Origin: Methanosarcina vacuolata Z-761
Lineage (GTDB): Archaea; Halobacteriota; Methanosarcinia; Methanosarcinales; Methanosarcinaceae
NCBI RefSeq assembly: GCF_000969905.1
Contig: NZ_CP009520.1
Coordinates: forward strand, 1-64,000
DNA: 64,000 nucleotides
Direction of reading: 5' to 3'
Positions 1-31,555 of the stretch are shown here, piece by piece. Positions within the stretch are counted from its first letter, which is position 1. Each line of letters opens with the position of its first letter. The translations under genes were made by a program, and so were the position numbers. The notes under the pieces are model-generated. The model searched no databases. It was not told the DNA's origin and saw only the letters and a list, made by a program, of their open reading frames with translations.

Positions 1-1012
1 TATTTAAGGTATAAAATATTTCCAGTGGAAATCAGGGGGTCTTTACCATAACAATTAATACGGTGTACTTCCATTGCATCTACTGCAAATATAGCTTAAA
101 TTCACTTGTTTATAAACCAATTTCACCTAAAATTTCAACAAAAGAAGATATGGAATATAGATTTTATCTGGTAGGCGAGGTATCTTAATACTTAAAACTC
201 GCCCGCCATTTTATCATTAGCTAGTAGAAAATAAGGGTTTCAGGCATTAATTATAAGCAATATGTCTCTTCTATCCCTTTCTCCTTATTAGCAGGATATA
301 TAGGGTTTTTCATAAAGGCACAAATAATGATGGAGTAAAATCTCAGAAATCCTAAAATGAACTTTAGTTCCAGATATTGAAAGTTAAAATTTCGGAGTTG
401 AGAGTTTAACCTTTCCCCCTTTCCCTCTCTCCCTCTTTCCAAATATCCCTTACATGAAACCACATTTACAGCCTCCTAAAATCCCTTGATAACCATTACA
501 CAAATTATTGAAAACCGCTGAACGGCTATTGTAAAATCAGTCTAAAGCTTGTCAAATAGTTGCGGTTATAATTGTCAGGCATTTGAAAAGGAAGCTCTAA
601 AAACACAATACTTAATAGATGCGGATCAGGAGGATTAAATTGACTGCAGACTGTAAAAATTCCTCCTGATTTCAGGTAACAGTAAAACGTTTGAGATTAA
701 AAACACTTAAAATTAGTAAAACGCTTAAAATTAAAAGCACTTAAAATTAGTAAAACATTTAAAATCAAAACATTTAAAATTAAAAAACTAAAAATCATTA
801 TTACAAAAATAAATATTAAAGTAATTCAAAGAAAAAGTATACAGAGTTTTTCAACTATATTAATTTATTATATCTAACTTACTTAGTAAAATTACTGTAT
901 CTACTGTATCCATTAATTTGACATGCAATGGTTTGCATTGTATTAATTATCTGCGTTAGAAGTATCTTAATTTCTTAAATGCTTAATATCATAATTTTTA
1001 TAGAGGATCTTC
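1..1012. other. Probable flank of a replication origin upstream of orc1/cdc6
   Basis: This AT-rich stretch before orc1/cdc6 contains no convincing gene. It has one Orc1/Cdc6-box-like site at 19-40 and a run of short A/T repeats (variants of aaaacacttaaaattagt) at about 680-800, followed by very AT-rich DNA to about 1000 that could unwind easily. In archaea, origins usually lie next to a cdc6 gene, with origin recognition boxes flanking an AT-rich unwinding element. Only one box is visible here, so the main part of the origin may lie to the left of the window. The origin role is inferred. Confidence 0.55.
19..40 (+). promoter_or_regulatory. Origin recognition box-like site 1
   Basis: The plus strand reads tttccagtggaaat followed by a G run. 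This matches the known archaeal ORB layout of a short dyad (TTCCAGTGGAA) with a G-rich tract on one side, which Orc1/Cdc6 binds. It lies about 970 bp before the orc1/cdc6 start. Its orientation is opposite to the three similar sites at 17.2, 17.4 and 21.3 kb. Confidence 0.7.
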
Positions 1013-2257
1013 ATGATAAAAGCTCAATCATTAGACGGCTTATTCGAAAAATTACTTGACGGAAAATCAATTTTCAAAAATAAAGAAGTACTTCGGCCTT
1101 CTTATACGCCTGACCTTTTATTGCACAGAAATGAGCAAATTAACAGTCTTGCGACAATCCTGGTTTCTGCACTCCGAGGAGAAACTCCTTCCAATGTACT
1201 TATTTATGGGAAAACCGGGACAGGAAAAACCGCTGTTACCCGTTATGTTGGAAAAGAACTTGAAAGGGTAAGTGAAGACAAATCCCTTTTCTGCTCGGTT
1301 GTTTATATTAATTGTGAAGTAATCGATACACAGTACCGGCTCCTTGCAAATCTTGCCAGACATTTTGAAGAAGAAGTTCCGATGACCGGATGGCCTACTG
1401 ATCAGGTCTTCATGAAATTCAAGGAGGCAATAGATTCCAGAGAGCAGGTCATTGTCATAATTCTGGACGAAATCGATAAGCTGATAAAAAAAGGCGATGA
1501 TGTTCTTTATAACCTGTCGAGAATCAATACAGACTTGCAGAGAGCCAAAGTCAGTATGATCGGCGTTTCAAACGATCTTAAATTCACGGAATTTCTGGAC
1601 CCCAGGGTCAAAAGTTCCCTGGGTGAAGAAGAACTTATCTTTCCTCCTTATGACGCTGAACAGATAAGCGATATCCTGAAACAAAGAGCAAAAATGGCCT
1701 ACACCGACGGTGCTCTTGGTGAGATGGTAATTCCCTTATGCGCCGCTTTTGCAGCTCAGGAACACGGCGATGCAAGGCGCGCACTTGACCTCCTAAGGGT
1801 CTCGGGGGAAATTGCAGAAAGGGAAAATCAGCCTCAGGTTCTTGAAGAGCACGTAAGGCGCGCTCAAGAAAAAATCGAAGTTGACCGCGTAGTCGAAGTG
1901 GTAAGAACCCTTCCAACCCAGTCCAAACTCGTACTCTATAGTATCATTCTTTTGCGGAGTAGAGGCAGAGAAGGTAAAAATGTCACAACAGGCGAGATGT
2001 ACAATGTTTACCGCCAGCTCTGCCACCATATTGACGTGGATATTCTTACCCAGCGCAGGGTTACTGATCTCATGTCCGAACTTGATATGCTGGGAATAGT
2101 CAACGCAGTGGTTGTAAGTAAAGGTCGCTATGGTCGAACGAAAGAAATTTCACTGAGCGTTCCAGTCGAAAGCACCCGTAAAGTACTTCTTGAGGATTAC
2201 AGGCTCAAACCTCTGGTAGATTTCAAGGCATCAGTTTTCAGCAAGATGTTTTCGTAA
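1013..2257 (+). CDS. cdc6: Orc1/Cdc6 family replication initiator
   Basis: This 414-residue AAA+ protein is the archaeal counterpart of Orc1 and Cdc6. It binds origin boxes and loads the MCM helicase. Walker A is GKTGTGKT at residues 66-73, Walker B is LDEID at about 151-155, the sensor 1 region is IGVSND near 183-188, and sensor 2 is GDARRALD near 252-259. The C-terminal third is the usual winged-helix DNA-binding domain. The start codon follows a GAGGATC ribosome-binding site. An origin-box-like site lies upstream. The stop codon sits inside a 14-bp tandem repeat that continues past the gene. Length and motifs fit a full, active member; the exact paralogue number is not assigned. Confidence 0.96.
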   Translation: MIKAQSLDGLFEKLLDGKSIFKNKEVLRPSYTPDLLLHRNEQINSLATILVSALRGETPSNVLIYGKTGTGKTAVTRYVGKELERVSEDKSLFCSVVYINCEVIDTQYRLLANLARHFEEEVPMTGWPTDQVFMKFKEAIDSREQVIVIILDEIDKLIKKGDDVLYNLSRINTDLQRAKVSMIGVSNDLKFTEFLDPRVKSSLGEEELIFPPYDAEQISDILKQRAKMAYTDGALGEMVIPLCAAFAAQEHGDARRALDLLRVSGEIAERENQPQVLEEHVRRAQEKIEVDRVVEVVRTLPTQSKLVLYSIILLRSRGREGKNVTTGEMYNVYRQLCHHIDVDILTQRRVTDLMSELDMLGIVNAVVVSKGRYGRTKEISLSVPVESTRKVLLEDYRLKPLVDFKASVFSKMFS

Positions 2258-5401: not shown

Positions 5402-6241
5402 TTACTTTTTAGTTGCCTTGCAAAAGATAACATTATTTCCATTCCAGAGATCAGTATCTGGCAAGACGTCATCATAGCACTCGACCTGTTTAAAGCCTTC
5501 CTGTTCCAGAATTTTCTTCAGGTCATCAGACGTAAAGAAGTGAGTCCAAAAACGATATACATTGAAATTGTCAGAATTATCGATTACGATGTGCTGGTAC
5601 AATATCACTTTGTCCATCGGATAATAATAGGAGTCTGAAAGAACAAGGTATGGTCTATCTTTCCAAAAGCCACATTCTTCCATTTCCCAGGATTTTTCAG
5701 CAACTTTCAATTCGATGTCTTTATCGCTGAGAACATCAAAAATGAAAATTCCTTTAGGCTTTAAAGCTCTGTAAGTATTCTGTAATAAAGTCCTTCTTGC
5801 AACTGGTGTTAAGACGCCAAAATCAGTAAAAATCATCATTGCAAGGTCATATTTATTCTCTTCACATAGTTCGAGGTAATTCTGGTTTATGTATTCTATA
5901 TCCAGGTTTTTCTTTATGGCTTCATTTCTGGCATATTCGATTGAATTCTTTGAGAAATCGACACCTGTTACTTTATGTCCCCTCTTTGCCATAACCTCAG
6001 CATACAATCCGGGTCCGCATCCCAGATCAAGAATATTCATTTTTTCCTGATTGACGGAGTTTAAAATCCAGTCCACGGTACTCTCTATACTTGCTTTTTT
6101 CCGGCTTGCCAGATCAATATCCGGGTTCAAATGGATATTCAACAGCTGCTTTGAAATGTGGTCATCTGTCCACATAACAGCGTTTCCTTCTGCATAGATT
6201 TGCGGTTTCTTTGTAAACTCTAGAATATCTATAAAATTCAT
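5402..6241 (-). CDS. Class I SAM-dependent methyltransferase
   Basis: This 279-residue protein has a classic class I fold. Motif I is ILDLGCGPG, followed by the acidic end of strand 2 in VTGVDFS and the later motif YDLAMMIFTDFGVL. The central domain is flanked by an N-terminal region with WTDDHISKQLL and a C-terminal strand-rich part. The substrate cannot be deduced. The start ATG follows agaggg. A 55-bp tandem repeat array lies 60 bp upstream in its promoter or leader region. Confidence 0.88.
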   Translation of the reverse strand: MNFIDILEFTKKPQIYAEGNAVMWTDDHISKQLLNIHLNPDIDLASRKKASIESTVDWILNSVNQEKMNILDLGCGPGLYAEVMAKRGHKVTGVDFSKNSIEYARNEAIKKNLDIEYINQNYLELCEENKYDLAMMIFTDFGVLTPVARRTLLQNTYRALKPKGIFIFDVLSDKDIELKVAEKSWEMEECGFWKDRPYLVLSDSYYYPMDKVILYQHIVIDNSDNFNVYRFWTHFFTSDDLKKILEQEGFKQVECYDDVLPDTDLWNGNNVIFCKATKK

Positions 6242-6300
6242 AAATGAGCCCTCTTTTCCACCATCATGGATTTATTTACGGACTTATTCACGGACTCTTA

Positions 6301-6454
6301 TATTTGCGATTAACCACAACTCTCTATCTCTACGATTAACCGTTAAACAACTCTCTATTTGCGATTAACCACAACTCTCTATCTCTACGATTAACCGTTA
6401 AACAACTCTCTATTTGCGATTAACCACAACTCTCTATCTACGATTAACCGTTAA
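6301..6454. repeat. 55-bp tandem repeat, about 2.8 copies
   Basis: The unit begins tatttgcgattaaccacaac and repeats at 6301, 6356 and 6411. Each unit itself holds two related halves built on cgattaacc and actctctat. The third copy has small deletions. The array lies upstream of the minus-strand methyltransferase gene (start 6241). The remainder of the 6242-6655 gap shows no gene. Confidence 0.88.
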
Positions 6455-12463: not shown

Positions 12464-13309
12464 TCAGAGGATGGCTTTCATGATATCGGTTCTGCTTATT
12501 ATGCCCACTATATCTTCTCCATCACTGACAGGTAATGCAGTCACTCCATTTTCAATCATCTTTTTGGCGGCTGCACTGATATCTTCATTTGAATCAATGG
12601 AGTTTATTGGAGATATCATGATGTCTTCTGCGGTCAAGGGTAACTCTTTTACATATCTATAGGTCTTCTGGCCCCCAGGAGAGGATTTGCGAGTCATCTT
12701 GATGTTTTTCGTGGAAAGTTCGCCTTGAAAATCAGTTAAGAGGTTTAAGGCAAGGCTTCTGCTGGAAATAATTCCTACAGGCTTTCCTGCATCGTCTTTA
12801 ACAATCACTCTTTCGATGTTATTTCTGTTCATTTCGTCAATTACATGGTTGATAGTATGATGCCTGTGAACAGAAATAATATCTTCAGTCATTAATTTAG
12901 AGATTTTTGTTTTCATTTCCTCGTCATTTTCCGCAACAAAGCGCACAAGATCTGTCCTGGTGATAATACCTACAATATCGTTCTTTACAACCGGGATAGT
13001 ATGCACCCCGTTCTCAAGCATTAAGGCAGCTGCTTGGGAAATAGAGGCTTCAGGATAGATGCTAATGACCGATTCAGTCATCAATAACTTGATAGGGATT
13101 TGATCTATTGGCCTCCTCCTCCATAGAGGTTCAGCCTGAGCCAGACGGTTAGTGATGTCTGATTTTGTAACGATTCCCACTATTTTGCCCTCATTGAGGA
13201 CGAGCAACGTACTGATTTTATGCCTTAACATCAGTTTTCTCGCACGTGACACGGGTTCATCTGTATTTACGACGTACACAGGTGAACTCATGATGTTCGC
13301 TACATTCAT
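12464..13309 (-). CDS. CBS-domain protein, four CBS motifs (array gene 2)
   Basis: This 281-residue protein has two Bateman modules with the repeated signatures [60 protein letters not shown] and [20 protein letters not shown]. Modules 1 and 2 are joined by a basic linker ([20 protein letters not shown]). The start is well supported by AAGGAGG. There is no output domain, so it presumably senses a ligand and acts through a partner. It is separated from array gene 1 by 171 bp. Confidence 0.92.
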
Positions 13310-13599
13310 GAAGTACCTCCTTCACTTTTACAATATATAAGTGTCAATAATTATACTTTTTGAATCGGAAGCAAAAGTTACAGTTTTTAGCTGTACTCGG
13401 TGAAATTTCAGGGAAGTAACCAGTACCTCTTGTTGAAGCGAGAATTATTTTAAAAGGTTCTTATTTTAGAAAGTTTTTATTTTAATGAGCTACACTTCAA
13501 ATCCTGAGTACTCAATGTACAGCTTACTTTTCGACCTATCCACAAATTGTAGGCTTACTTCTTGATCTATCCAGCTAGAAAATTTTCCTTTTCTTCAAG

Positions 13600-13655
13600 T
13601 CTCCTGGAACCTTAGTCTCCTGGAATCTTAATCTCCTGGAATCTTAATCTCTTAA
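13600..13655. repeat. 16-bp repeat, about 3.5 copies
   Basis: The unit atctcctggaatctta repeats in tandem between CBS genes 2 and 3. It is followed at 13662-13682 by a 7-bp hairpin (agcccga/tcgggct) that could end the transcript of gene 3. Confidence 0.75.
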
Positions 13656-13661
13656 AACTTA

Positions 13662-13682
13662 AGCCCGAAAGTTTCTCGGGCT
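13662..13682 (-). terminator. GC-rich hairpin downstream of CBS gene 3
   Basis: agcccga and tcgggct pair around a 7-nt loop about 200 bp past the stop of CBS gene 3. There is no strong U run, so the terminator role is uncertain. Confidence 0.35.
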
Positions 13683-13730
13683 CAGTTCAACTTTAATTTT
13701 CGCTAAACTTCGTTAAGTTCCGTGACAGTT

Positions 13731-13840
13731 TGAACCAGCTTGAATCAACTTGTATCGGCTTGAATCAGCTTGAATCAGCTTGAATCAGCTTGAACCGACT
13801 TGAACCAGCTTGAATCAACTTTAACCAGCCTGGATGAGGT
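13731..13840. repeat. 10-bp tandem array, about 11 units
   Basis: The unit tgaatcagct repeats in 10-bp register, with variants tgaaccagct, tgaatcaact and tgaaccgact. It lies between CBS gene 3 (stop at 13883) and CBS gene 2 (start at 13309). It is one of four unrelated arrays in this window with the same 10-bp period. The rest of 13310-13882 shows no gene. Confidence 0.9.
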
Positions 13841-13882
13841 CTAATCAATTTGAATCTCTAATCAATTGATTATTCCTAGAAT

Positions 13883-14911
13883 TCATTTAAGAGATCTCAG
13901 AAGGTCTCTTTCAGTAATAATGCCGCGGAGCAGCCCATTATCCAGGACCGGAAGTGAACCTATCTTTTTCTCAAGCATTATTTCCATTGCTTTTCCCAGG
14001 TCTGTGCCTGGACCAGTCCATATCAGCTCTCTTGAGACAATAGAACCTACAGGCCGGTCTAGAGCCTCGTGAATGTTTCCTGTTGTCAGCTTACTGAAGG
14101 CTTCCCCCTTTCCAAGGAAATGGATAATATCAGAGGACGTGATAATTCCTGCGAAGATGCCGTCCTTGACTACAGGAAGCCTTCGAAGCCTGTTCTCTAC
14201 CATTATTTTTGCTGCCTGTCCAATGGGGGTATCAGTTGAGACCATTCTGACGTTCTCGGTCATATATTCATCAACAGTTCGGTTTGTCACGATTCCGCCC
14301 ATCAATTCAAGTGCATTCCTTTCGGTAAAGATTGCAACGACCTGCATGTCACTGTTCACGATTGGCAGACCGCCTGTTCTTCTTTCAATCATTGTTGAAA
14401 CAGCGTCTTTAAAGTCAGCCTGGTCATAAAGATAGGGAATGTCAGTTTCCATGATTTGTCGTACTTCTTCGTTGATTGCAGCCAGAAGGTTACCTTTGAA
14501 GCGGTTTTCAACGAGCAGATTCTTTTTTCCGCCCCCCAGAAAATCGATAATATCTACGGAAGTAACTACCCCTTCCAGTCTCCGCGTACCGGCGTTTGTA
14601 ATAGGAATGCGCCTGAACCTCTTTTCAGTCATAATCCTGATTGCATCCATTATTTTTGCGGTTGGAGGGAGGGTTACTACATTTCTTGTTGCCAGAGCCA
14701 GGATTTTTCCCTCATGTTCTGAAATGCGGGATTTAAACTCAGGACCTATTCGCATAGTGCCCATGCTGCTAATCGTGTGCGGGTCTTTCTGCTGCGCTTT
14801 CTTGGATTTGCTCACACCTGGCTGAATCTTCATCTTGTCGACAGATTTAAATGTCATATTTTTGTCCAATGGAATCACCGAATTCGAGTTGCAGTTAATT
14901 GCTTTTTTCAT
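13883..14911 (-). CDS. CBS-domain protein, four CBS motifs with basic N-terminal tail (array gene 3)
   Basis: This protein of about 342 residues has four CBS motifs: [61 protein letters not shown] and [21 protein letters not shown] basic, probably disordered tail of about 75 residues precedes them ([20 protein letters not shown]). The start is placed at the ATG at 14911, which follows a ggaagag site; an open frame runs up to 15154, but that part is low-complexity and unlike the family. A start further inside (MTFKSV) cannot be excluded. Confidence 0.85.
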
Positions 14912-15186
14912 ATGCCGTTTTTCTCTTCCTGCAGCTTGCAGGAGTTTCCCTGGAGCGTGCAGCTTACTTCTCAGCAAACCCAGGTTTGCTACTGGAAAAA
15001 ACAAAACCTGAAAGCAATTTCTCCCGAATCTTTCCGAAAGGTTTACTTTATTTGTGGATTTATAATTATTATTGATGATAGTCTTTGATGTTATAATCTT
15101 TTTGCATGAAAACTGCCATTTATTTTTTACATTAATTTTCTGGCCAGTTTTCACAATTCACGGAGCTTTAAAGTAGAAAGTTAATT

Positions 15187-16002
15187 TCAAAAGCGATTAT
15201 CTGAGGGTTGTTCAGTCCATACATTGACAATAGACTTCAGAAGATCCTGTCTGTCAGCAATTCCGGATACTTTTCCATGTTCATTCACTACAGTGACCCT
15301 CCCGATATCATAGTGAATAATCATCTCAATTGCACTCCGGACGGAATCGCTTTCTGAAATAGTATATGTGGGAGTTGACATTACCGTTTCAACCTTCGGA
15401 CTGTCATTGGGCCTTGTCGCTCGATCGTCTTCTACGGATATCCGCACAGCTCCTGATTTGATGATGTCCCTTCTGGTTATCATCCCTATGGGCTCCCCTG
15501 TTTTTGAAGCTACAGGAATACCCGTGTAATCTGTCTCAAGCATACGCCCCCAAATCTTTGCCACTCTTTCTTCTGGAGAGCAGATTTCAACTTTTTTTGT
15601 CATAATCTCCTGTATGGTTTTGGGAAGATTTTTCGGAAGCTCCACGTTTCTAAGAATATCCACATTACTCAGGACGCCGACAACCGTATGGTCAGCAGTT
15701 GATTTAACAACCGGGACCCTATTCTGTTTCGATTGCACTATTAACCTTGCAGCTTTCATGACATCCATATCCGGAGTGACTGTCGGGGATTGGCTTGCAT
15801 ACCCGTCTACTGTGACATTTGAGCGTGTAGAGGTAACCCTCAAGATATCCTGGTCACTTAGCATTCCCACAAGCCTGTTCTCTTCGTCAACAACAACAAG
15901 GCTTCGAAGAAGGTAATCGCGCATCAGCTGACGGGCGTGAGTTACAAAGTCTCCTTCTTTGATACTTATAGGCCCTTCTGACATAATCTCGCTGACATTC
16001 AT
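15187..16002 (-). CDS. CBS-domain protein, four CBS motifs (array gene 4)
   Basis: This 271-residue protein consists of two Bateman modules. Signatures include [63 protein letters not shown] and [20 protein letters not shown]. The start is supported by ggaaggt 7 nt upstream. Only 64 bp separate it from array gene 5, which lies upstream in the direction of transcription, so the two are probably co-transcribed. No catalytic or DNA-binding domain is present. Confidence 0.92.
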
Positions 16003-16066
16003 TGTTTACCTTCCTGTGCTTTCTTTAAGACCGAATATTTGAAAGTCGAGATTTCAAGATTGTAAT

Positions 16067-16714
16067 TCATTCGTAATTCTCCCCTTCTTCTTGCCGACAG
16101 TTTTCGCATAAATACATGCCGTCAACTAATTTAAGGTCTGCTGAGTGATAAAAACAGGATTCACATATTCCTGTGATGAACTCCTCTGTAATCTCTTCAA
16201 CTGAAGGAGTGGAGAGGAGAGCTTCCCGGTTCATATCAATAAGATCTTTGAGTATGGTGCTGAGCCCGGGTGTAACCATCAGAATATCAGTATTCGAAAC
16301 CACTCCTATTATTGTACCGTTTTCCAGGACTGGCAACCTTTTAATATTCGCCTTTAACATGATCTCAGAAGTTTTTATTACACTTGTTTCAGGCTTTACA
16401 GTTATTAAGGGGGTTGAGAGGATTTCACTTGCCTTTACCTCACCTGGTTTTCTATCTTCTGTAACAATACCCTTTACAAAGTCCCTTTCAGTTATAATTC
16501 CCATGGCTTTGCCATTTTCTGTAATAATGACGCTTCCTGCATCACGGCTGACCATTTCCCTTGCAATGGCAGGAATGTCTGAATTAATGTCCATTATTAT
16601 GACTGCTTTATTCATGACTTCAGCAACTGAGACCTCTCTTTCAATCTCTCTGCTGTGAATACCAGTATCTATATCTCTCTCAGCATCGGTGCCCCTTCTA
16701 GGTCCATCTGCCAT
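16067..16714 (-). CDS. CBS-pair protein with C-terminal zinc ribbon (array gene 5)
   Basis: This 215-residue protein has one Bateman module (two CBS motifs: SRDAGSVIITENGKAMGIIT and [20 protein letters not shown]) and a C-terminal four-cysteine ribbon, CESC...CENC, near residues 185-210. The ribbon could bind zinc and contact nucleic acid or a protein, giving this gene an output domain that the other four lack. The start follows agggggaac. It is the promoter-proximal gene of the array; its upstream gap holds two origin-box-like sites. Confidence 0.9.
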   Translation of the reverse strand: MADGPRRGTDAERDIDTGIHSREIEREVSVAEVMNKAVIIMDINSDIPAIAREMVSRDAGSVIITENGKAMGIITERDFVKGIVTEDRKPGEVKASEILSTPLITVKPETSVIKTSEIMLKANIKRLPVLENGTIIGVVSNTDILMVTPGLSTILKDLIDMNREALLSTPSVEEITEEFITGICESCFYHSADLKLVDGMYLCENCRQEEGENYE

Positions 16715-17233
16715 CTACCGCCGTTCCCCCTTTCATTCCGTAATTCGGCAATTCACAATATAAAATTTACAGATAATTTTAGATAATTTTAGATAATGTT
16801 AGATAATGTTAGACAACGTATAATATATAAACTTATAATATATTATTTAAAATATAATTTATACTAAAATTTCGAAAAAGCTCTTCAGGTATCAAGTGTC
16901 CTGTGGAAAAACGTTCAAGATCGCTTTAGTTTTCCCTCCAGTTTAGGCCTTGCAATCATTAGCTTTTTAAAGATAATACTCCGGTGAGGCCCATTGTCCC
17001 GGATTTCTTTTTTTGTCCGCTTCCTCTAAGATGTTTTCCCCATAATTTTCGGACTTTTTTTACAGCTTATATTATGATTCAATGGTACATAATAATAACG
17101 GCATTTACTTTTTTTGTAGAGAACATAAATTTGCATGAAGTCAAGCGCATTCACTTTAAATCTCCAGTTAGTTTGCTTATGGTAAATCTCATAGTAAAAA
17201 GCTTGAGGAAATCACGGAGGAAATTTTTCAGAA

Positions 17234-17252
17234 CCCCCCTATTTCCACTGGA
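17234..17252 (-). promoter_or_regulatory. Origin recognition box-like site 2
   Basis: The plus strand reads cccccctatttccactgga, i.e. the minus strand reads TCCAGTGGAAATA followed by six Gs. It shares a flanking word, gaaatttttcaga, with site 3, so the pair arose by duplication or is conserved as a longer element. Confidence 0.65.
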
Positions 17253-17410
17253 GGTTTTTGCTGAGAATGAAAAAGATTCAATCTTCTGGAAGAAGTATTA
17301 GAAAGAAGTGCAGAAAAGAAGTATACTTTAGAAAATAGGCTTATACAGTTTCAAAAAATCCAAATTATATTTGTAATGCTTTCTATTTCTCTCACAAGAA
17401 ATTTTTCAGA

Positions 17411-17430
17411 CCCCTTTATTTCCACTGGAA
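17411..17430 (-). promoter_or_regulatory. Origin recognition box-like site 3
   Basis: The plus strand reads cccctttatttccactggaa, preceded by gaaatttttcaga as in site 2. Orientation is the same as sites 2 and 4 and opposite to site 1. Confidence 0.65.
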
Positions 17431-17520: not shown

Positions 17521-18975
17521 TTAAAGCATAATTACTCTGCTTCGGTTCCCAATACTCAGCTCGATTTCTTCATTCAGGCCATACTTCGAATATGCATTAA
17601 TGACCTGGATTTCGGAGTCAATATCAAGATCTTCGATCACATAAGCCTGTTCTCCCCAGAGAGTTAGCCTTATGCTGCCGGTTTCGTCTTTTATTTGGAG
17701 ATTTGCAACCACATTCTCGGTTCCATCTTCCCTTTCAAACTCGCGGAGTTCCCCTATTTCGGAAACCTTACCCTGAACCGAATAGTTTTCCCCAGGGATA
17801 ATATCAGCGATATCCGTAAACTTTTCTCTGTACTCAATCTCCTTTTCACTCTTCTGGATTATTCCCCGGCTTCCCATGTTGAGTTCCACCTGCTGGTTGA
17901 AGGCATTTTCACGAGAGTAAGCATGAAGTACCTCTATGGTCTCGTCAAAGTCGATTTCATCCAGAAAACTGGTTTTTTCATCCCATAGAGTCAGCCTGAT
18001 TTTTCCAGTGGAATCACCAAGAAGAAGATTTCCGACTCTTCCGGCAGACCCGTCTTTTTTCTCAAAGGTCCGGATTTCCCCTATATCAAGAACTCTACCG
18101 GAAACGTTAATATTGTTCATATCAGCCCCGATATCCTCAATTGGGGTAAATTCCTCTTCGTACTCGATTTTTTTCTCACTTTTCTTTATTATACTTCGGT
18201 TTCCCACCTGCAACTCAACTTTCTGGGTAAAGGCATTCTCCCGCGCATAAGCACTGACCAGCTCCACAGTGTCTCCATATTCTACCTGGTTCATAAACTC
18301 AGTCCTGTCGTCCCAGAGGGTCACCCTGACTGTGCCTGTACTGTCTCCAAGAAGCAGATTTCCTACCTTTCCATTGGTCCCGTCTTTTCGCTGGAAGGTC
18401 CTTATCTCTGAAATTTCCAGGACTTTTCCTGTCAAATTCAGGTCTCCCATGCCGTCCTTTATATCCTTTATTTTCTGGTTGTTGGCAGCTACATCGATTT
18501 CTTCTTCACTCTCGGCCAGGACTCCATTATTTCCGACATTGACTTCCACTCCTGAGTATCCTTGCTTCGCATAGCCGCTGATCTGGAGGGTTTGCCCTGC
18601 TACGATTTTTCCAGTTTTGATGAGATCTGCCATGTTGTCCCAGAGAGTGAGCTTAATCTTGCCGGTTTCATCTCCAACAATTATATTTCCGACTCTACCT
18701 ATCGTCCCGTCGTTTCGGGTGAATTCTTTGATCTCAAAAACCGACACAACCTTTGCAACAAAGTTAATTTGCCCGCTATCAGCTGTAATATTTTCAACTT
18801 TTACACTATCCCGACCTACATCCGAAAATCCAAGTTCATTGGCAACCAGCATGGCAGCCATAGGTTCATCGCAAAGCCCTCCCATGCTTTCGACCTTTTC
18901 CTGTACACGCTGCAGAAAGTCTTCTTTACTGATAACGTTATTAAGTTTATTATAGATTGATTCAATATCTGTCAT
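17521..18975 (-). CDS. rpa1: Replication protein A, four OB folds
   Basis: This 484-residue single-stranded DNA-binding protein has four tandem OB folds, at roughly 69-162, 174-270, 287-380 and 395-484. Each carries the core VGNLLLGDSTGxxRxTLWD, and repeats 2 and 3 are nearly identical. There is no zinc finger. This matches the four-OB RPA1 described in Methanosarcina; the other RPAs there have fewer OB folds plus a zinc finger. The start follows AAGGGG. A short N-terminal helical region precedes the first OB fold. Two origin-box-like sites lie just past its 3' end and a 10-bp repeat array lies in its leader. Confidence 0.94.
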   Translation of the reverse strand: MTDIESIYNKLNNVISKEDFLQRVQEKVESMGGLCDEPMAAMLVANELGFSDVGRDSVKVENITADSGQINFVAKVVSVFEIKEFTRNDGTIGRVGNIIVGDETGKIKLTLWDNMADLIKTGKIVAGQTLQISGYAKQGYSGVEVNVGNNGVLAESEEEIDVAANNQKIKDIKDGMGDLNLTGKVLEISEIRTFQRKDGTNGKVGNLLLGDSTGTVRVTLWDDRTEFMNQVEYGDTVELVSAYARENAFTQKVELQVGNRSIIKKSEKKIEYEEEFTPIEDIGADMNNINVSGRVLDIGEIRTFEKKDGSAGRVGNLLLGDSTGKIRLTLWDEKTSFLDEIDFDETIEVLHAYSRENAFNQQVELNMGSRGIIQKSEKEIEYREKFTDIADIIPGENYSVQGKVSEIGELREFEREDGTENVVANLQIKDETGSIRLTLWGEQAYVIEDLDIDSEIQVINAYSKYGLNEEIELSIGNRSRVIML

Positions 18976-20560: not shown

Positions 20561-21556
20561 TCAATTCACGGACACTTCTAAAAAGCCTTCTTTTTTTTCT
20601 ATCCTGAATTTGACATTCAGAAACTGTTCAGTAATCCAGATATTTGTCGTAGTATGAAGAGAGAGTTCACGGACAGTGTAAGAACAATTTCCTGCAAGAG
20701 CCATGTACGGTATTAGCTGGTCTGCCAGATGTGTGTCCACCGAGGCTCCTGATCTAAGTTCAGGAATAATTTCGTCTGCGGCATATTTGCCTACTTTTTC
20801 TGCGGGAAGCCCTCTTTCCCCAAGGGCACTCCCACCTATATAGCCTGTCCAGAGGGTTATCCCGCTTCCGGTGGAAAAAGCTTCAAAGGATTGAGTTTCA
20901 ATTTGAGATGTATATCCGGCTTCCATTAATCTCGTACTGGCAGCTTCGGCCTGGCGTAAAGGTACATGAGCCGGAAGATTCGAAGCGTGAGAAATCCCCT
21001 TGATTTCTTCCTCTTCTTTTAAAAAATTAAATCCTCGCAACCTGCACGGCTTAAAATAAGCTGAAACTTTTCCTCCTCCTTTTGGGTAGTAACCGTGTTC
21101 TTTCAGAGTTAAGCTGCCTGAATATCCAAGTTGTTTCAGAGCCCTGAAGGTTACATTCTGCAGGTAGTCTATTGTTGGAGACCAGGCAACGTCGGTTCCC
21201 CCTTTTATAGTGAGCTCGACCTTCTTTTTTGCAAACGGTAGGGCAGGCATAATGCACTGGAGGAGCAGGGTTATGCTTCCTGCAGTCCCGATATCAATAT
21301 CATACTTACCCCCCCCTATTTCCACTGGAACAAACAAAATTTCAGTAGAGCCTGGAAAAAGTCCAGATGTCTGAGCTCTACATATACTGGCTGCAGTTTC
21401 CAGCGCCTTTAAATGCTGCTGTTTCAGGCCTGGATTTGGTCTGTTTTTCCTGATATTAGTAATCCTTATCCCATTTCCGGTAACTGCGGAAAGGGCAACA
21501 GCCGTTCTGACCAACTGCCCTCCCCCTTCACCATAAGAGCCGTCGATCTCTAACAT
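20561..21556 (-). CDS. rtcA: RNA 3'-terminal phosphate cyclase
   Basis: This 331-residue enzyme converts an RNA 3'-phosphate to a 2',3'-cyclic phosphate using ATP. Conserved segments include EIDGSYGEGGGQLVRTA at the N-terminus, NIRKNRPNPGL, GTAGSITLLLQ and the active-site histidine region ASVDTHLADQLIPYMALA near the C-terminus. The start is placed at the ATG at 21556 because a gggggaa site precedes it; an upstream ATG adds five residues and lies on that site. The coding sequence contains an origin-box-like element at 21309-21331. Confidence 0.93.
   Translation of the reverse strand: MLEIDGSYGEGGGQLVRTAVALSAVTGNGIRITNIRKNRPNPGLKQQHLKALETAASICRAQTSGLFPGSTEILFVPVEIGGGKYDIDIGTAGSITLLLQCIMPALPFAKKKVELTIKGGTDVAWSPTIDYLQNVTFRALKQLGYSGSLTLKEHGYYPKGGGKVSAYFKPCRLRGFNFLKEEEEIKGISHASNLPAHVPLRQAEAASTRLMEAGYTSQIETQSFEAFSTGSGITLWTGYIGGSALGERGLPAEKVGKYAADEIIPELRSGASVDTHLADQLIPYMALAGNCSYTVRELSLHTTTNIWITEQFLNVKFRIEKKEGFLEVSVN
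21309..21331 (-). promoter_or_regulatory. Origin recognition box-like site 4, inside rtcA
   Basis: The plus strand reads a run of C, then tatttccactggaac. It codes for FVPVEIGGG of RtcA, so it could be a chance match under coding constraint. Its match to sites 2 and 3 extends through the C run and the dyad, which makes chance less likely but does not exclude it. Confidence 0.45.
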
Positions 21557-21655
21557 TTGCTTCCCCCACATTTTCCTGATTCCATCTTACGTTATCCTAC
21601 TGATTTCTATTTGCTTTGCTTCCATTTATGTTGCTTCTATTTTCTTCGCTTCCAT

Positions 21656-23134: not shown

Positions 23135-24649
23135 GCTCTCAGTAATTGTGTTTCCCGCCTATTATAATTTAAGTGCCCAAAAAGCTTTCAGGTTAACGAG
23201 TGGAGAATTCTTAAAACGATTCATCAAGGTTATTTGATCAGGCATTTTTTGAAAGGCAGATTACTTGAAAATCATCTGCTCTTCCCACATGAAAATGGGT
23301 CTTTACATAATCCGGAAAAAGCGTGAAAAGGACTTATAATCTTCAGGGGTGGCTGAACGAGCGAGTTTGGGAGTGGGGGGTTAGTACATAAAAAAGTTTC
23401 TATGCCTCGCCCGTTCAATTTTTTACAAGTCTTTTTTTTTATATATACTTTTCTAAATTTTCGACTCTATTATTTTTTACATTTTCTAAATTTCTTATGA
23501 CCCGTTCTGAAAGACTTCTTCTGAAGTTGTTTTGAAAGTATCTTATCTTCAAGACATCAGACATGAAAAATTACTTTGATTTGATAAAACTCTTTAAATA
23601 ACCACAAAGTTCTTAAAGCCTGCCGGCATTAAATACATGAATTTAAAACATATGACGTACAGGTTTCCTCATTTGCCGAGACTCCTTTAAAAGCAGAAGG
23701 GAACTGTTCTGTCAGATCATATCATTGATTAACAACTTCACCTATTCACCATTGCTAAATTCGTAAAGATAATCCAATGTAACTAATCCATATGCAAATT
23801 AATAAAAACTTCAGATTCACTACATTATCACTCAGGGTTAAAATACCATTCAACGTAAAACTGAAATTCATATCTCATCACCCATGAAGTAAAAGTCAAA
23901 AAGTGTTCTCGATAAACCTGATATACATTTCACTTACCGCTTACCAGTTATCACTACAGAGCCCCTAAATCACGGGATAGGGCGTCTGCACATATCGGCT
24001 TCATGCCCGGATTACCCGTTTTTAAGGGTATTTATTGAAAATCATAGTTATCAGGCTAATTGAAATGTGAACACTTTTTTTTGGCTTTCGGTCCTGAAGT
24101 TTATCTCAGGGTCATAATAAGAACTTATGTTAGGGAAAAGGCTTTCGAACAGATATTGGAAAGTCTCAGAAACAACGCAGGTATTATTGTCTGTTCAATT
24201 GAAAGTTAAGAGATTCTAGATCTAGAGAGCCTTAAGACAGGTTAACTCAGGTCTGGGATTATAGCAGGTTCTCATAAGGTAAGAGCTTCCACTTAATAGC
24301 GTAAATTTCTGGCACTCTACCGAATTATGTCTCCTGGCATAAGTACAATGGAAACTCAAGGCAGGTTCGGAACTAGCTTTCCGGCTACATTTATAGTTAA
24401 TTCTTAAATCTGCCCCTTCAAGGGTGTTTTGTCCCTGATCCGAGATGAAATCTGATTTTTTTACTATTTTTGCATTTTCAGGGCTTTACGAGTTTTCGGA
24501 GTCTAGAGAATAGTTTATGTTATCAGAAAACTCGACGGATCTAATTCACAAATGTAATTAATTACAATTGTTGGGAATTAACTTCCTAGTGTGTTTAATT
24601 TAATAAATCTATCACGATAAATCATTCACAATATATGAGGAGAATTCAC
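23135..24649. other. 1.5-kb divergent intergenic region before dnaG
   Basis: This is the longest gene-free stretch apart from the rRNA genes. It lies between two divergent genes. It contains a candidate structured RNA at 23326-23440, a 50-codon frame without a start codon near 23900-24065, and the dnaG leader. Base composition from 23900 to 24500 is less AT-rich than typical gaps here, suggesting a long leader, an unrecognised RNA or a decayed gene. Confidence 0.5.
23326..23440 (+). ncRNA. Candidate structured RNA with terminal U run
   Basis: An outer stem pairs aaaaggactt (23326-23335) with aagtcttttt (23427-23436), with one G-U pair. An inner 12-bp stem pairs tgaacgagcgag (23354-23365) with ctcgcccgttca (23406-23417), with one mismatch. 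The loop has a G-rich segment (gggagtggggggttag). A run of nine Ts follows. It matches no RNA family that I recognise. The orientation is chosen from the T run. Confidence 0.45.
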
Positions 24650-26206
24650 ATGCAAAATACGGATACTACAAAATACATCATTCATTCTAAAATTAATGCT
24701 GATGGGGTAATTGAACGTCCTGATATCGTAGGTGCGATCTTTGGGCAAACTGAGGGATTACTCGGGGCTGATCTTGATCTCCGTGACCTGCAAAAAACTG
24801 GCCGGATTGGCAGGATCGAGGTAATGGTTACGGCTAAAGGAGGAAAGACTAAAGGAAATATCTTTGTTCCCTCAAGCCTTGATAAGGTCGAAACCTCAAT
24901 TCTTGCCGCGTCGCTTGAGACCATTGACAGAGTGGGGCCATGTAGCGCAAAAATCGAGGTTTTCCAAGTAGAAGACGTAAGAGCTGTAAAGCGAAAGAAG
25001 ATTATTGAAAGGGCAAAACTCATTTTTACCAAAATGTTTGATGAGACCGTGCCTGAATCCCAGGAACTGGCCGACGAAGTACGACAGTCCGTAAGAGTCG
25101 ATGAACTCACTTACTACGGAAAATCCAGAATTCCCTGTGGGCCGAATGTACTTAATTCAGATGCCATTATTATTCTCGAGGGAAGGGCTGACATTCTAAA
25201 CCTGCTCCGCTATGGTATAAAGAACACCATCTGTGTAGGAGGAACAAATATTCCTCCGGAAGTTGCAGAGCTTACTAAAAAGAAAACGGTAACAGCGTTT
25301 ACTGACGGAGACCGCGGAGGAGAACTCATAATACGTGAGCTCCTCCAGGTGGCAGACATCGACTATGTTGCCCGTGCCCCCGATGGAAAATGTGTAGAGG
25401 ACCTTGTCCAGAAAGAAGTTATACGAGCTCTTCGTCGGAAGGTTCCTGTAGAGCAGATCATCGAGAAATACGGAATCCAGGAGAGGGAAGGCGAAGATAG
25501 TGCCTGCAGAGTGGAGAGGGGCTCCAAAAGAAAGATAAGGACACCTGAAATTGCTCCCAGGATTGCCGAAAAGAAGTTGCACAAGCGTGTTAAAGTTCAC
25601 AGGGTCTCTTCAAAGCCAGACCTTTACGGGGAGGAATTCCCGGAAGAAGAAACGAAAGAAACAGAATCTGTAAAAGCTTTTGAAAAGATTTCTGAAAAAA
25701 CTGCTGAAAAAGTCTCGGGAATAGTTCCTGTGACTGCAGAAAAAGTCAAAACAAGACCTATCATCGCAAAACCTCAGATTTCAGCAAGGGTAGTTCCTTC
25801 TGCTGTCAGAGTTTCCAGAGAAAAGCCTGCCGATAAGATCCCGGCAGCCGTCAAAGTTCCTGGAGGTGAGGCGGTCAGGGTCTCACCTGCTCCAGTAAAG
25901 CCAGTCCCTGTTTCTCCTGAAGCCCTCAGGTTCAGGCCTCATGTCGAGGCTCTGAAAGGAACTTTAACAGCCAGAATTCTTGACTCTCAGGACAAGGTAA
26001 TAGAAGAGATTGCGGTGCGGGACCTTGCGAGCAGGCTGAAAACCTATAAAGAAAATATCCAGAGCGTAGTTTTTGATGGCGTAATTACTCAGAGACTCGT
26101 TGATATTGCCTCAAGTAATGCAATTAAGAACCTTATAGGTGTAAAGATAGGGAATATAGCCAAGGTTCCTGCTGATATGGAAGTTTTAACCGCAAGCATG
26201 CTTTGA
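24650..26206 (+). CDS. dnaG: Archaeal DnaG-type primase
   Basis: This protein of about 518 residues has an N-terminal domain, a TOPRIM domain and a long C-terminal part. TOPRIM signatures are [14 protein letters not shown] (Glu near 177) and the metal-binding DGD in [11 protein letters not shown] (219-221). Residues of about 280-430 form a charged, low-complexity linker. The start is the ATG at 24650, because GAGGAG lies just before it and overlaps a weaker upstream ATG. Archaeal DnaG has primase activity and also associates with the exosome, so roles in RNA decay and replication are both possible. Confidence 0.93.
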
Positions 26207-27988: not shown

Positions 27989-29869
27989 TCAGAGTTTCTT
28001 GATATGCCTGACATCCACTGCAACTCCTCTACTGGATTTCACCATTTCTTCTCCGCTCATCATAGCTCGCCCTACACAGAGCGCTTTTTTCCCGAGCACA
28101 ATTACCTCATCATTAGGCCTTATTCCCGGATCGGCTTCAATAACTCCTGGGGCAAGGATGGAACCGCGTGGTAGAAAATCATCAATTTTTACCAGGTATT
28201 TCTTGTTTTTTAGCACGAGTTCAGCCCCTTCGAGGGAAAGAGCAAGCATTCCGTATTGCGGAACCAGGGTTGCGAGTTGTTTTTTTCCAGAAAAGAGCTG
28301 ATACTTGGGGAATCGGCCTTTAACTGCAAGCTTTCCGGTTTCTTCAGAGAAAAGAAATGCAGCACCTTCTCCGAACTGATATTCTGCAATAGCTCTCATG
28401 AAATTCTTTTTGTCTTCTTCCGCGTTCAGGCTTTTCCTGCTGAAACTTTCGGATGTGCAGATAGACTCAACGGTCTTCTTGAGGTTTGAAAGAGCCTCCA
28501 TAGATACAAGGCTTCCTGTGGCAGTATAGGTTATTTCAATCCCGAGCTTACCTGCCGATCGTTCACAGATTTCTCTGTATGCCCCTTCTACATGGGCGAC
28601 TATGGCCTTGTATCTGTATTTTGAGAGATAAGCCTCAAGGCAGCCGGAAACCCAGGCTTTTTCTTCTTCGTCCCAGTGCCCTGTAACCGCAGTGTCATAA
28701 TGGGCTGCTGGGTATGTTAATTCCAGTTCTCTGGGTACTATTCCAAGAGGCGAGGTTAAAATCACTTCATGGACGAATTTCCGGTATTTTCCTAGGGCCA
28801 GAATAAATTTCTGATGGGATTGGGAAATTGAGTAAGGTTTTCTGGCCGCGCATGGTAAAAGTACGAGGATCTCAAGGTCCGGAGGTGTATACTTCTCCTG
28901 TATACGCCGTGCAAACCGCACCACTTCGACTCGAGATAGAGCCTCCGAGGTATCTGCAAGCAACTGGTTTTGCCGGAAAGCAGGAATTCTTTCTTCAAGG
29001 TAGGAATACTCAAAATCTCCAAGTCTTAACAGGGCTGTGAGCCAGGGCCTGACTCTGCACTGGCCTTCAACATATTCTCTCAATGTTCCGGTCCTTATTC
29101 TTTCCCGCACAAGGGAAAGTTCGGCTTCGAGAGCATTCTTATTGTGAGCTGAAAGGAATTTTGCTCTCTCTATCTTCGGAAGCTTCCTGAGATCTGCAGG
29201 TGTACTTTCGGCACATACCCTGCACCTGCAGGGAAACTCTGTCAGGGAGTCAAGATAAAAGCTGCCTGCTGCTGTCAGGTAAATATCAGAATAAGCTGCA
29301 ATTTCTGCTCTGGTATCGTCCAGGACATCAACTCCGAGGTAGACCAGCATAGCTATATTTTCAGGAAGCGCCAGGTTTGGGGCATAAAGAGCTGTATCAG
29401 GGGGAATATGGTTTCTAAACTCTATTACAGTCTCGAGAAATCTTCGTGCATTGTTTTCCAGGGTACCTGCCCCTTCCATTACATACAGGTCAGTTTTTTC
29501 AGGCTGTTCTCCCATCCTCAGGAGAGAACCTGTCGGGCCTGCATCTTCAACGTTTTCGCCTTTAAAAGCAGTAAATTTTTGGACTTTCTCAAGGGACTCA
29601 ACTGGAATAGAAGGCGGATACGCTTGATGCGGCAGGATTATAAGAGTTCCTTTTCCTGCTTTTTCCCGGATTTGCTTTACGCGTGCTTCTAGCTCTGCAT
29701 CGGATTTTACACCCCAGAAACTTCCTGCATCAATAACAGGGCCAGGTTTTTCCAGCCTTCCTAGTTTTGCCGCATTCAAAATGCAGGGCGTATGAAGCTC
29801 GGGAGACAGCAGAAGTTTTCCAATCCTTGCTGCTCCGTCTCTCTGTTCTATCTCAAAGTACCGTGTCAT
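27989..29869 (-). CDS. arcS: Archaeosine synthase ArcS
   Basis: This protein of about 626 residues acts after TGT in making archaeosine at position 15 of tRNA. It is a TGT paralogue: an N-terminal TIM-barrel region, a zinc site (C214, C216, C219, H242 in CRCRVC and AHN), the ArcS-specific motif PCAARKPYSISQSHQKF near 339-355 that replaces the glycosylase function, and a C-terminal PUA domain ending in GEEMVKSSRGVAVDVRHIKKL. The start is the ATG at 29869, after GAGGA; an upstream frame extension is not supported. Confidence 0.92.
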   Translation of the reverse strand: MTRYFEIEQRDGAARIGKLLLSPELHTPCILNAAKLGRLEKPGPVIDAGSFWGVKSDAELEARVKQIREKAGKGTLIILPHQAYPPSIPVESLEKVQKFTAFKGENVEDAGPTGSLLRMGEQPEKTDLYVMEGAGTLENNARRFLETVIEFRNHIPPDTALYAPNLALPENIAMLVYLGVDVLDDTRAEIAAYSDIYLTAAGSFYLDSLTEFPCRCRVCAESTPADLRKLPKIERAKFLSAHNKNALEAELSLVRERIRTGTLREYVEGQCRVRPWLTALLRLGDFEYSYLEERIPAFRQNQLLADTSEALSRVEVVRFARRIQEKYTPPDLEILVLLPCAARKPYSISQSHQKFILALGKYRKFVHEVILTSPLGIVPRELELTYPAAHYDTAVTGHWDEEEKAWVSGCLEAYLSKYRYKAIVAHVEGAYREICERSAGKLGIEITYTATGSLVSMEALSNLKKTVESICTSESFSRKSLNAEEDKKNFMRAIAEYQFGEGAAFLFSEETGKLAVKGRFPKYQLFSGKKQLATLVPQYGMLALSLEGAELVLKNKKYLVKIDDFLPRGSILAPGVIEADPGIRPNDEVIVLGKKALCVGRAMMSGEEMVKSSRGVAVDVRHIKKL

Positions 29870-30184
29870 ATTTGTCCTCTTATGTCTATCAGGATGTAAA
29901 GGTTTGTCCTGCACTTTTTTCCTGAATATTTCTTTTACTCCCCGCTTTTCTGAAGCTAAAAGGTTCTCAGCTTTACGTTTTATCCCTTGAACTCTTCAGA
30001 AGGAGAATGGTATTCTTCAGAAGAAAAAAAGATATTCCTCAGAAGAAAGGAGGATGGTATATTTTTATATATTATTAATCTTGATTATTTGCTGCAACTC
30101 ATCTTTCATTTGTCTGTCATTGTCTGTCTCAAGCCGTGGCAGAAATTCTATTTTTCACATTTGAACTCCAATTTGAGGTCTAGA

Positions 30185-31555
30185 ATGGATATAACTGCAG
30201 AACTTCAAAAAATCGTTGGTGGACGACTTTCTGTCTCTCCTTCGGAACTTTATTGTTATTCTTCTGATGCATCCCAGGTCAAGGGAATGCCTGATTACGT
30301 GGTACGCCCGAAAAGTACAGACGAAGTAAGCCGGATTGTCAGGCTTGCCTATGAGAACGAGATCCCTGTGACTGCAAGGGGAGCAGGCACCGGACTTGCA
30401 GGTGGTGCAGTCCCTGTTAAAGGGGGCATTGTGCTGGATATGTCGGGCATGAACCGTGTTCTTGAACTCGATATTGATAATATTCAGGTTCTGGTAGAAC
30501 CCGGGCTTATTCAGGATGCTTTAAATGAAGCGCTAAAGCCTTATGGCTTTTTCTTTCCTCCAAATCCTGGCAGCTCAGCCATGTGTACTATCGGGGGTAT
30601 GATAGCTTACAACGCAAGCGGAATGCGCTGTGTTAAGTACGGTACTACCAGAAACTACGTTCGTGACCTTGAAGTGGTGCTTGCGGACGGGACAGTTATT
30701 CATACCGGTTCAAAGATGCTGAAATCCGCAGCAGGATATGATTTGACCCAGCTTATTGTAGGTTCGGAAGGCACACTCGGCATTGTCACAAAAGCCAGGC
30801 TTAAGATTGCTCCTCTCCCTAAAACCCGAAAACTGGTAATTACTTCCTTTGAAAATGCGGAAATTGCAGGGCAGGCAGTTGTAAAAACCTTTTCAAACGG
30901 GGTTATTCCCTCGGCCTGTGAGATTCTGGACAGGGTTTCTCTACAGGTTCTCAAACGTTACGACCCGAACCTTGTGCTTCCTTCAGAAGGCGATGTTATT
31001 CTTTTCGAGGTTGACGGCACTGAAAACTCGGCACGTGAAGCTGCAGAACAGATAATGAAAGTTTGTGCCCCCCTGGCTCTTTCCATAAGGCTTGCGGAAA
31101 GTGAAAAGGAAATGGCAGATATCTGGGCAGCCAGAAAACTCGTAGGGGCTGCTGTTTCTCGCCTGGATCCAACAAAGAGCCGCATCTATGTCGGAGAAGA
31201 CGTGGGAGTTCCCATAAAGCAAATCCCGGAACTGCTAAAACGAGCACAGGAAATCGCCGAGAAATTCAACCTGCCGGCTATGAAATACGGGCATATAGGG
31301 GACGGAAACCTGCACCTTGCCCTTTTCATCGATGTCTTGAATAAAGACGAGTGGGACCGCCTGAAAAAAGCTGCGGACCTTATTCACAGGACAGCGATTG
31401 AGCTTGGAGGCACAGTTAGCTCCGAACATGGTATAGGCGCGGCCAGGGCTGAATACATGAAAGCACAATGGGGCCCTGCCCTTGAGGTAATGCGTGCGAT
31501 CAAAAATGTCCTTGACCCGAAAGGTATACTGAATCCGGGCAAACTGGGGTTGTGA
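30185..31555 (+). CDS. glcD: FAD-linked oxidase, GlcD/D-lactate dehydrogenase type
   Basis: This protein of about 456 residues is a PCMH-type flavoprotein. The FAD-binding loop is TARGAGTGLAGGAVP, then GSEGTLGIVTKA, and the C-terminal oxidase domain holds KYGHIGDGNLHLA and SSEHGIGAARAEYM. It matches glycolate and D-lactate dehydrogenases. The start is the ATG at 30185, after GAGGT; a longer frame from 29987 codes for low-quality sequence. The GlcF-like Fe-S gene follows after 4 bp, so the two probably form one complex that oxidises a 2-hydroxyacid. Confidence 0.9.
   Translation: MDITAELQKIVGGRLSVSPSELYCYSSDASQVKGMPDYVVRPKSTDEVSRIVRLAYENEIPVTARGAGTGLAGGAVPVKGGIVLDMSGMNRVLELDIDNIQVLVEPGLIQDALNEALKPYGFFFPPNPGSSAMCTIGGMIAYNASGMRCVKYGTTRNYVRDLEVVLADGTVIHTGSKMLKSAAGYDLTQLIVGSEGTLGIVTKARLKIAPLPKTRKLVITSFENAEIAGQAVVKTFSNGVIPSACEILDRVSLQVLKRYDPNLVLPSEGDVILFEVDGTENSAREAAEQIMKVCAPLALSIRLAESEKEMADIWAARKLVGAAVSRLDPTKSRIYVGEDVGVPIKQIPELLKRAQEIAEKFNLPAMKYGHIGDGNLHLALFIDVLNKDEWDRLKKAADLIHRTAIELGGTVSSEHGIGAARAEYMKAQWGPALEVMRAIKNVLDPKGILNPGKLGL

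Follow-up and report, generated by a model that had tools for sequence, protein, structure and literature searches.

Two conserved origin recognition boxes beside the RPA gene, and a third inside rtcA, as candidate satellite sites of the replication initiator in Methanosarcina

Why do two boxes resembling those of a replication origin lie beside the gene of replication factor A (RPA) in Methanosarcina vacuolata Z-761, far from cdc6? The initial annotation of this DNA noticed the duplicated, same-orientation boxes and considered that they could be Cdc6 satellite sites, a second origin, or a device for the self-regulation of replication genes. The window that we analysed covers positions 1–64,000 of a 4,505,752-bp contig; its position 1 is just 5' of cdc6-1, which codes for an orc1/cdc6 initiator (1013–2257, plus strand; TIGR02928, 498.8 bits). 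The duplication is confirmed: ORB-A (17234–17252, reading TCCAGTGGAAATAGGGGGG) and ORB-B (17411–17429, reading TCCAGTGGAAATAAAGGGG), both on the minus strand, form a direct repeat with a start-to-start distance of 177 bp, about 15 kb from cdc6. On the plus strand, their contexts are gaaatttttcagaaccccccta-tttccactgga (17221–17252) and gaaatttttcagacccctttatttccactgga (17398–17429), respectively. Like the boxes of the cognate origin, each has the TCCA-TGGA dyad core and then the G run; in sequence, the two are textbook examples of the origin recognition boxes of archaea (ORBs, TCCAGTGGAAATNNRGGGG). In the alignment, an A/T-rich extension follows the G run of each box on the minus strand, ttctgaaaaatttcc at 17219–17233 for ORB-A and tctgaaaaatttctt at 17396–17410 for ORB-B.

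The pair is placed between the stop codon of RPA (484 aa; 17521–18975, minus strand; NF011288, 1021.7 bits) and the start, at 16714, of a downstream gene coding for a CBS-domain protein (16067–16714, minus strand). There are four adjacent CBS-domain protein genes in this region (12464–16714), all on the minus strand. Since the boxes sit on the 3' side of RPA, past its stop codon at 17521, self-regulation is not supported for RPA and control of the RPA promoter is rejected.

The boxes are not a stray repeat. The 19-mer TCCASTGGAAAYNNRGGGG has six exact copies in the 4.56-Mb genome, against 0.002 expected, so that the scan proposed in the initial annotation reveals a motif that is not common, and the reversed control pattern has no exact match in this genome. 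The six copies are found at cdc6-oriC, RPA, rtcA and one distant locus; when one or two mismatches are allowed, the additional matches include the cdc6 upstream region and a cluster at 355 kb. A chance repeat is ruled out by this rarity, by the absence of matches to the reversed control and by the conservation described below. The origin-side ORB upstream of cdc6-1 (TCCAGTGGAAATCAGGGGG, 21–39, plus strand) had been left unlinked to the RPA boxes. The core of the RPA boxes, G run and dyad included, matches exactly that of the ORBs that precede cdc6-1 in the respective genomes. We also observe, at about 59–77, a degenerate ORB-like sequence in inverted orientation (tgcaatggaagtacaccg on the minus strand) that faces the ORB at 21–39 and perhaps completes the origin core.

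Conservation of the locus in related organisms, another check suggested at the outset, is clear. The pair is kept in 27 of the 28 Methanosarcina loci for which there is enough sequence, each time as a direct repeat (27/27) that lies on the RPA strand; the sole exception, in the genome G018, has a single box. The spacing is 177–180 bp in 24 of these loci and 173, 168 and 247 bp in the remaining three, while the gap between the RPA stop codon and the pair varies from 78 to 827 bp. The pair also occurs in genera g4 and g5, with spacings of 135 and 167–168 bp, respectively. The conserved unit begins shortly before ORB-B and ends with the extension past ORB-A, and conservation falls outside. Between the boxes, on the minus strand, it includes the invariant 10-mer AAATATAATT (17363–17372), which in most Methanosarcina is 56–59 nt past the start of ORB-B and 120–121 nt ahead of ORB-A, and, in the alignment, a conserved TTTCATTCTCAGCAAAA block just ahead of ORB-A (17256–17272). 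The spacing of 177–180 bp and these conserved blocks suggest a defined nucleoprotein structure, not a loose pool of sites. A structured RNA between the boxes was rejected: RNAalifold returns no structure, weak pairing appears only when the ORBs are included, and there is no Rfam match. A small conserved open reading frame was also discarded, since ATG codons are common there but stops break the frames in most genomes. At one locus of the genome G010, the interval that separates RPA from the pair holds an extra ORB with one mismatch, 270 bp beyond the stop codon of RPA.

A third box of the same region had been overlooked. ORB-C, an exact ORB (TCCAGTGGAAATAGGGGGG; 21311–21329, minus strand), is inside the coding sequence of rtcA (RNA 3'-terminal phosphate cyclase; 20561–21571, minus strand). 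It is present with at most two mismatches in 25/25 Methanosarcina rtcA loci. In other genera, 14 of 15 rtcA loci have it, the protein identity going down to about 53%. Of the 198 rtcA codon columns in which a degenerate residue is conserved, those of the ORB-C codons CCA, GAA, ATA and GGG show the strongest constraint for P, E, I and G, respectively (product of ranks ~2e-5). ORB-C persists across the family under unusually strong synonymous constraint. In the genome G062 (genus g10), rtcA was not detected at the locus, yet an exact ORB is present between kptA and dnaG, and four further g10 genomes carry an exact ORB upstream of RPA, at a similar distance from it. The codon test and the g10 locus where rtcA is not detectable both disfavour the idea that protein constraint alone explains ORB-C. 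The DnaG encoded in the window (24635–26206, 523 aa) matches a 419-position model from end to end and seemingly has about 90 extra residues.

What binds these boxes is very probably Cdc6-1, because they are identical to the ORBs upstream of cdc6 and because Cdc6-1 is close to archaeal Orc1 proteins of solved structure (2qby_A, E=5e-113; 2v1u_A, E=7e-106); the match extends to the winged helix, with its RR and GRYG stretches. Two strongly conserved elements, the extension GAAAAATTTC and the AAATATAATT block, lie outside the ORB core; this would also be expected if another DNA-binding protein or chromosome organisation, rather than Cdc6, kept the boxes in place. We consider this very doubtful in view of the core itself, whose dyad and G run are those of the ORBs found upstream of cdc6.

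Could the locus then be a second, or dormant, replication origin? The ORBs adjoin a replication gene, the DNA nearby is A/T-rich (80-bp maximum of 0.89 AT in this genome), and Haloferax mediterranei is known to have dormant origins (PMC4595724). Nevertheless, the ORBs are direct in all 27 loci, not inverted like those that flank the AT-rich unwinding region of an archaeal origin, and no initiator gene is adjacent, the nearest cdc6 being about 15 kb off. From ORB-A to the CBS gene, the maximum AT content is on average 0.76 (26 genomes), to be compared with 0.88–0.91 upstream of cdc6 in three genomes. The cumulative skew computed over 464 kb has no vertex at 17 kb, although the curve is noisy and cdc6 does not coincide with its maximum either. 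Last, work based on Z-curve and GC skew suggests that M. mazei and M. acetivorans have one origin (PMC3984812). A second origin is thus the proposal that fits the evidence least; it is poorly supported and, in our view, improbable. A third cdc6 homologue is present at 29312–30415 of the second contig (58 kb by subtraction), which is possibly a plasmid.

The best reading is that the pair and ORB-C are satellite sites of the initiator Orc1/Cdc6-1, whose own origin is about 16–20 kb away. Among the options first proposed, this is the one favoured by the identity of the motif with the cdc6-proximal ORBs, its rarity in the genome and its conservation at the locus. The conservation of the pair and of ORB-C suggests that this is where the cell parks or senses its replication initiator, and we estimate the probability that the boxes sequester the initiator near the origin at about 50%, which makes it the most likely function that one can propose from the DNA. 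The mechanism would be as follows: satellite sites near the origin would be copied soon after initiation, this would double the number of competing high-affinity sites, the concentration of free initiator would fall, and re-initiation would be damped.

The main rival to sequestration is the control of a promoter about 140 bp from the boxes: Cdc6-1 bound at the pair would control transcription toward the CBS-domain gene and tie this gene to the replication state. This is what is left of the self-regulation first envisaged, once RPA is set aside. A conserved promoter-like block (GCCGTTATTATTATGTACCATTGAATCATAATATAA; 17067–17105, minus strand) lies 135–158 nt past the start of ORB-A in most genomes; it can be written GCCGTTATCATTATGTACCATTGACTCGTATATATAA, or GCCGTTATCATTATGTAC...TATATATAA, and it is directed toward the CBS gene. 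The main support comes from the shared presence or absence of pair and block across genera: both occur in Methanosarcina, g4 and g5, and both are absent from the RPA–CBS intergenic regions of the g7, g11, g12 and g13 loci that were read. The spacing inside this module is nearly fixed, and Orc1 paralogues can regulate transcription, as does Orc1-2 of S. islandicus (PMC9738581); however, Orc1-2 is a non-initiator paralogue that recognises a different motif (ANTTTC). The very conserved block would leave a leader of about 290–560 nt ahead of the CBS match, and no clear structure was found in this leader.

ORBs also occur where no promoter is expected, within rtcA and between convergent genes. The latter case is that of the cluster at 355 kb (about 355.4–356.3 kb of the contig; 5450–6327 of the extracted locus), where three direct ORBs lie between convergent radical-SAM and aldolase genes, an intergenic region in which a promoter is not expected. 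Two to three direct ORBs are found between these two genes in 13/13 Methanosarcina loci of that kind that were read, with a looser spacing. A dcd gene adjoins the aldolase gene at the 355-kb cluster. We favour sequestration over promoter control because the boxes, which are few, rare and conserved, occur on the 3' side of a gene, inside a coding sequence and between convergent genes; control of the CBS promoter is possible, but we would not call it likely. Titration alone does not explain the near-fixed spacing, the invariant AAATATAATT block and the co-occurrence of the pair with the promoter-like block. Two Cdc6 boxes about 178 bp apart, with the invariant 10-mer between them, may assemble into a defined complex with a double role, sensing or sequestering Cdc6 and switching the nearby promoter, and a further box would be kept in a coding gene by synonymous-site selection; such a putative control element is a tentative and rather unlikely proposal.

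Titration of an initiator has already been described or proposed in other systems. In E. coli, datA is a small set of DnaA boxes that titrates the bacterial initiator. The Methanosarcina boxes are also a small set that would titrate an initiator, and the comparison concerns only the way the two would work, since datA involves DnaA boxes and a bacterial initiator, and no site for a bending protein was identified at the Methanosarcina locus. The closest described case is oriC2D of Haloarcula hispanica, an ORB-rich negative control region for which initiator titration was proposed (PMC3936714, which also cites datA). In both cases ORBs are found outside the origin proper, and the presence of additional initiator boxes near the origin, though not within it, is what the Methanosarcina locus shares with titrating loci of the oriC2D or datA type. 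However, oriC2D comprises 11 ORBs within 722 bp, directly downstream of its cdc6E (PMC3936714), whereas Methanosarcina has 2+1 ORBs 15–20 kb away, at a near-fixed spacing and partly within a coding gene; having three sites instead of 11 weighs against titration. An ORB within a coding sequence, as in rtcA, is not without precedent: in Thermococcales, the gene of DP1, reported as a conserved neighbour of cdc6, holds an ORB and mini-ORBs (PMC2643942), but rtcA is about 20 kb from cdc6 and encodes an RNA enzyme. Regarding the action of an Orc1-family protein away from the origin, which we propose here, Sulfolobus Orc1-2 acts at damage-response promoters (PMC9738581), although it does so as a non-initiator paralogue whose motif, ANTTTC, is not an ORB.

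Little is known about how archaea with one main origin avoid re-initiation, and the sole titration model in the papers that we read is haloarchaeal. The titles, abstracts and passages covered by our targeted searches contain no description of these satellites in Methanosarcina, which is not proof of novelty. Methanosarcina is genetically tractable, and one of its conserved boxes can be removed by a synonymous change in rtcA, which would make initiator titration in a methanogen directly testable.

The distance between cdc6-1 and RPA is 16–33 kb in genera g1, g5, g7, g9, g10 and g13, and about 45–75 kb in g11 and g12; the RPA–rtcA module thus stays origin-proximal. A rule according to which satellites point to the origin fits the RPA and rtcA boxes in the complete genomes compared by eye, but symmetric inversions keep the orientation automatically, and the clusters of the 355-kb type disobey this rule. 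These clusters are not always close to the origin either, which counts against sequestration: in the genome G004, about 1.76 Mb separate the cluster from the contig end closest to cdc6.
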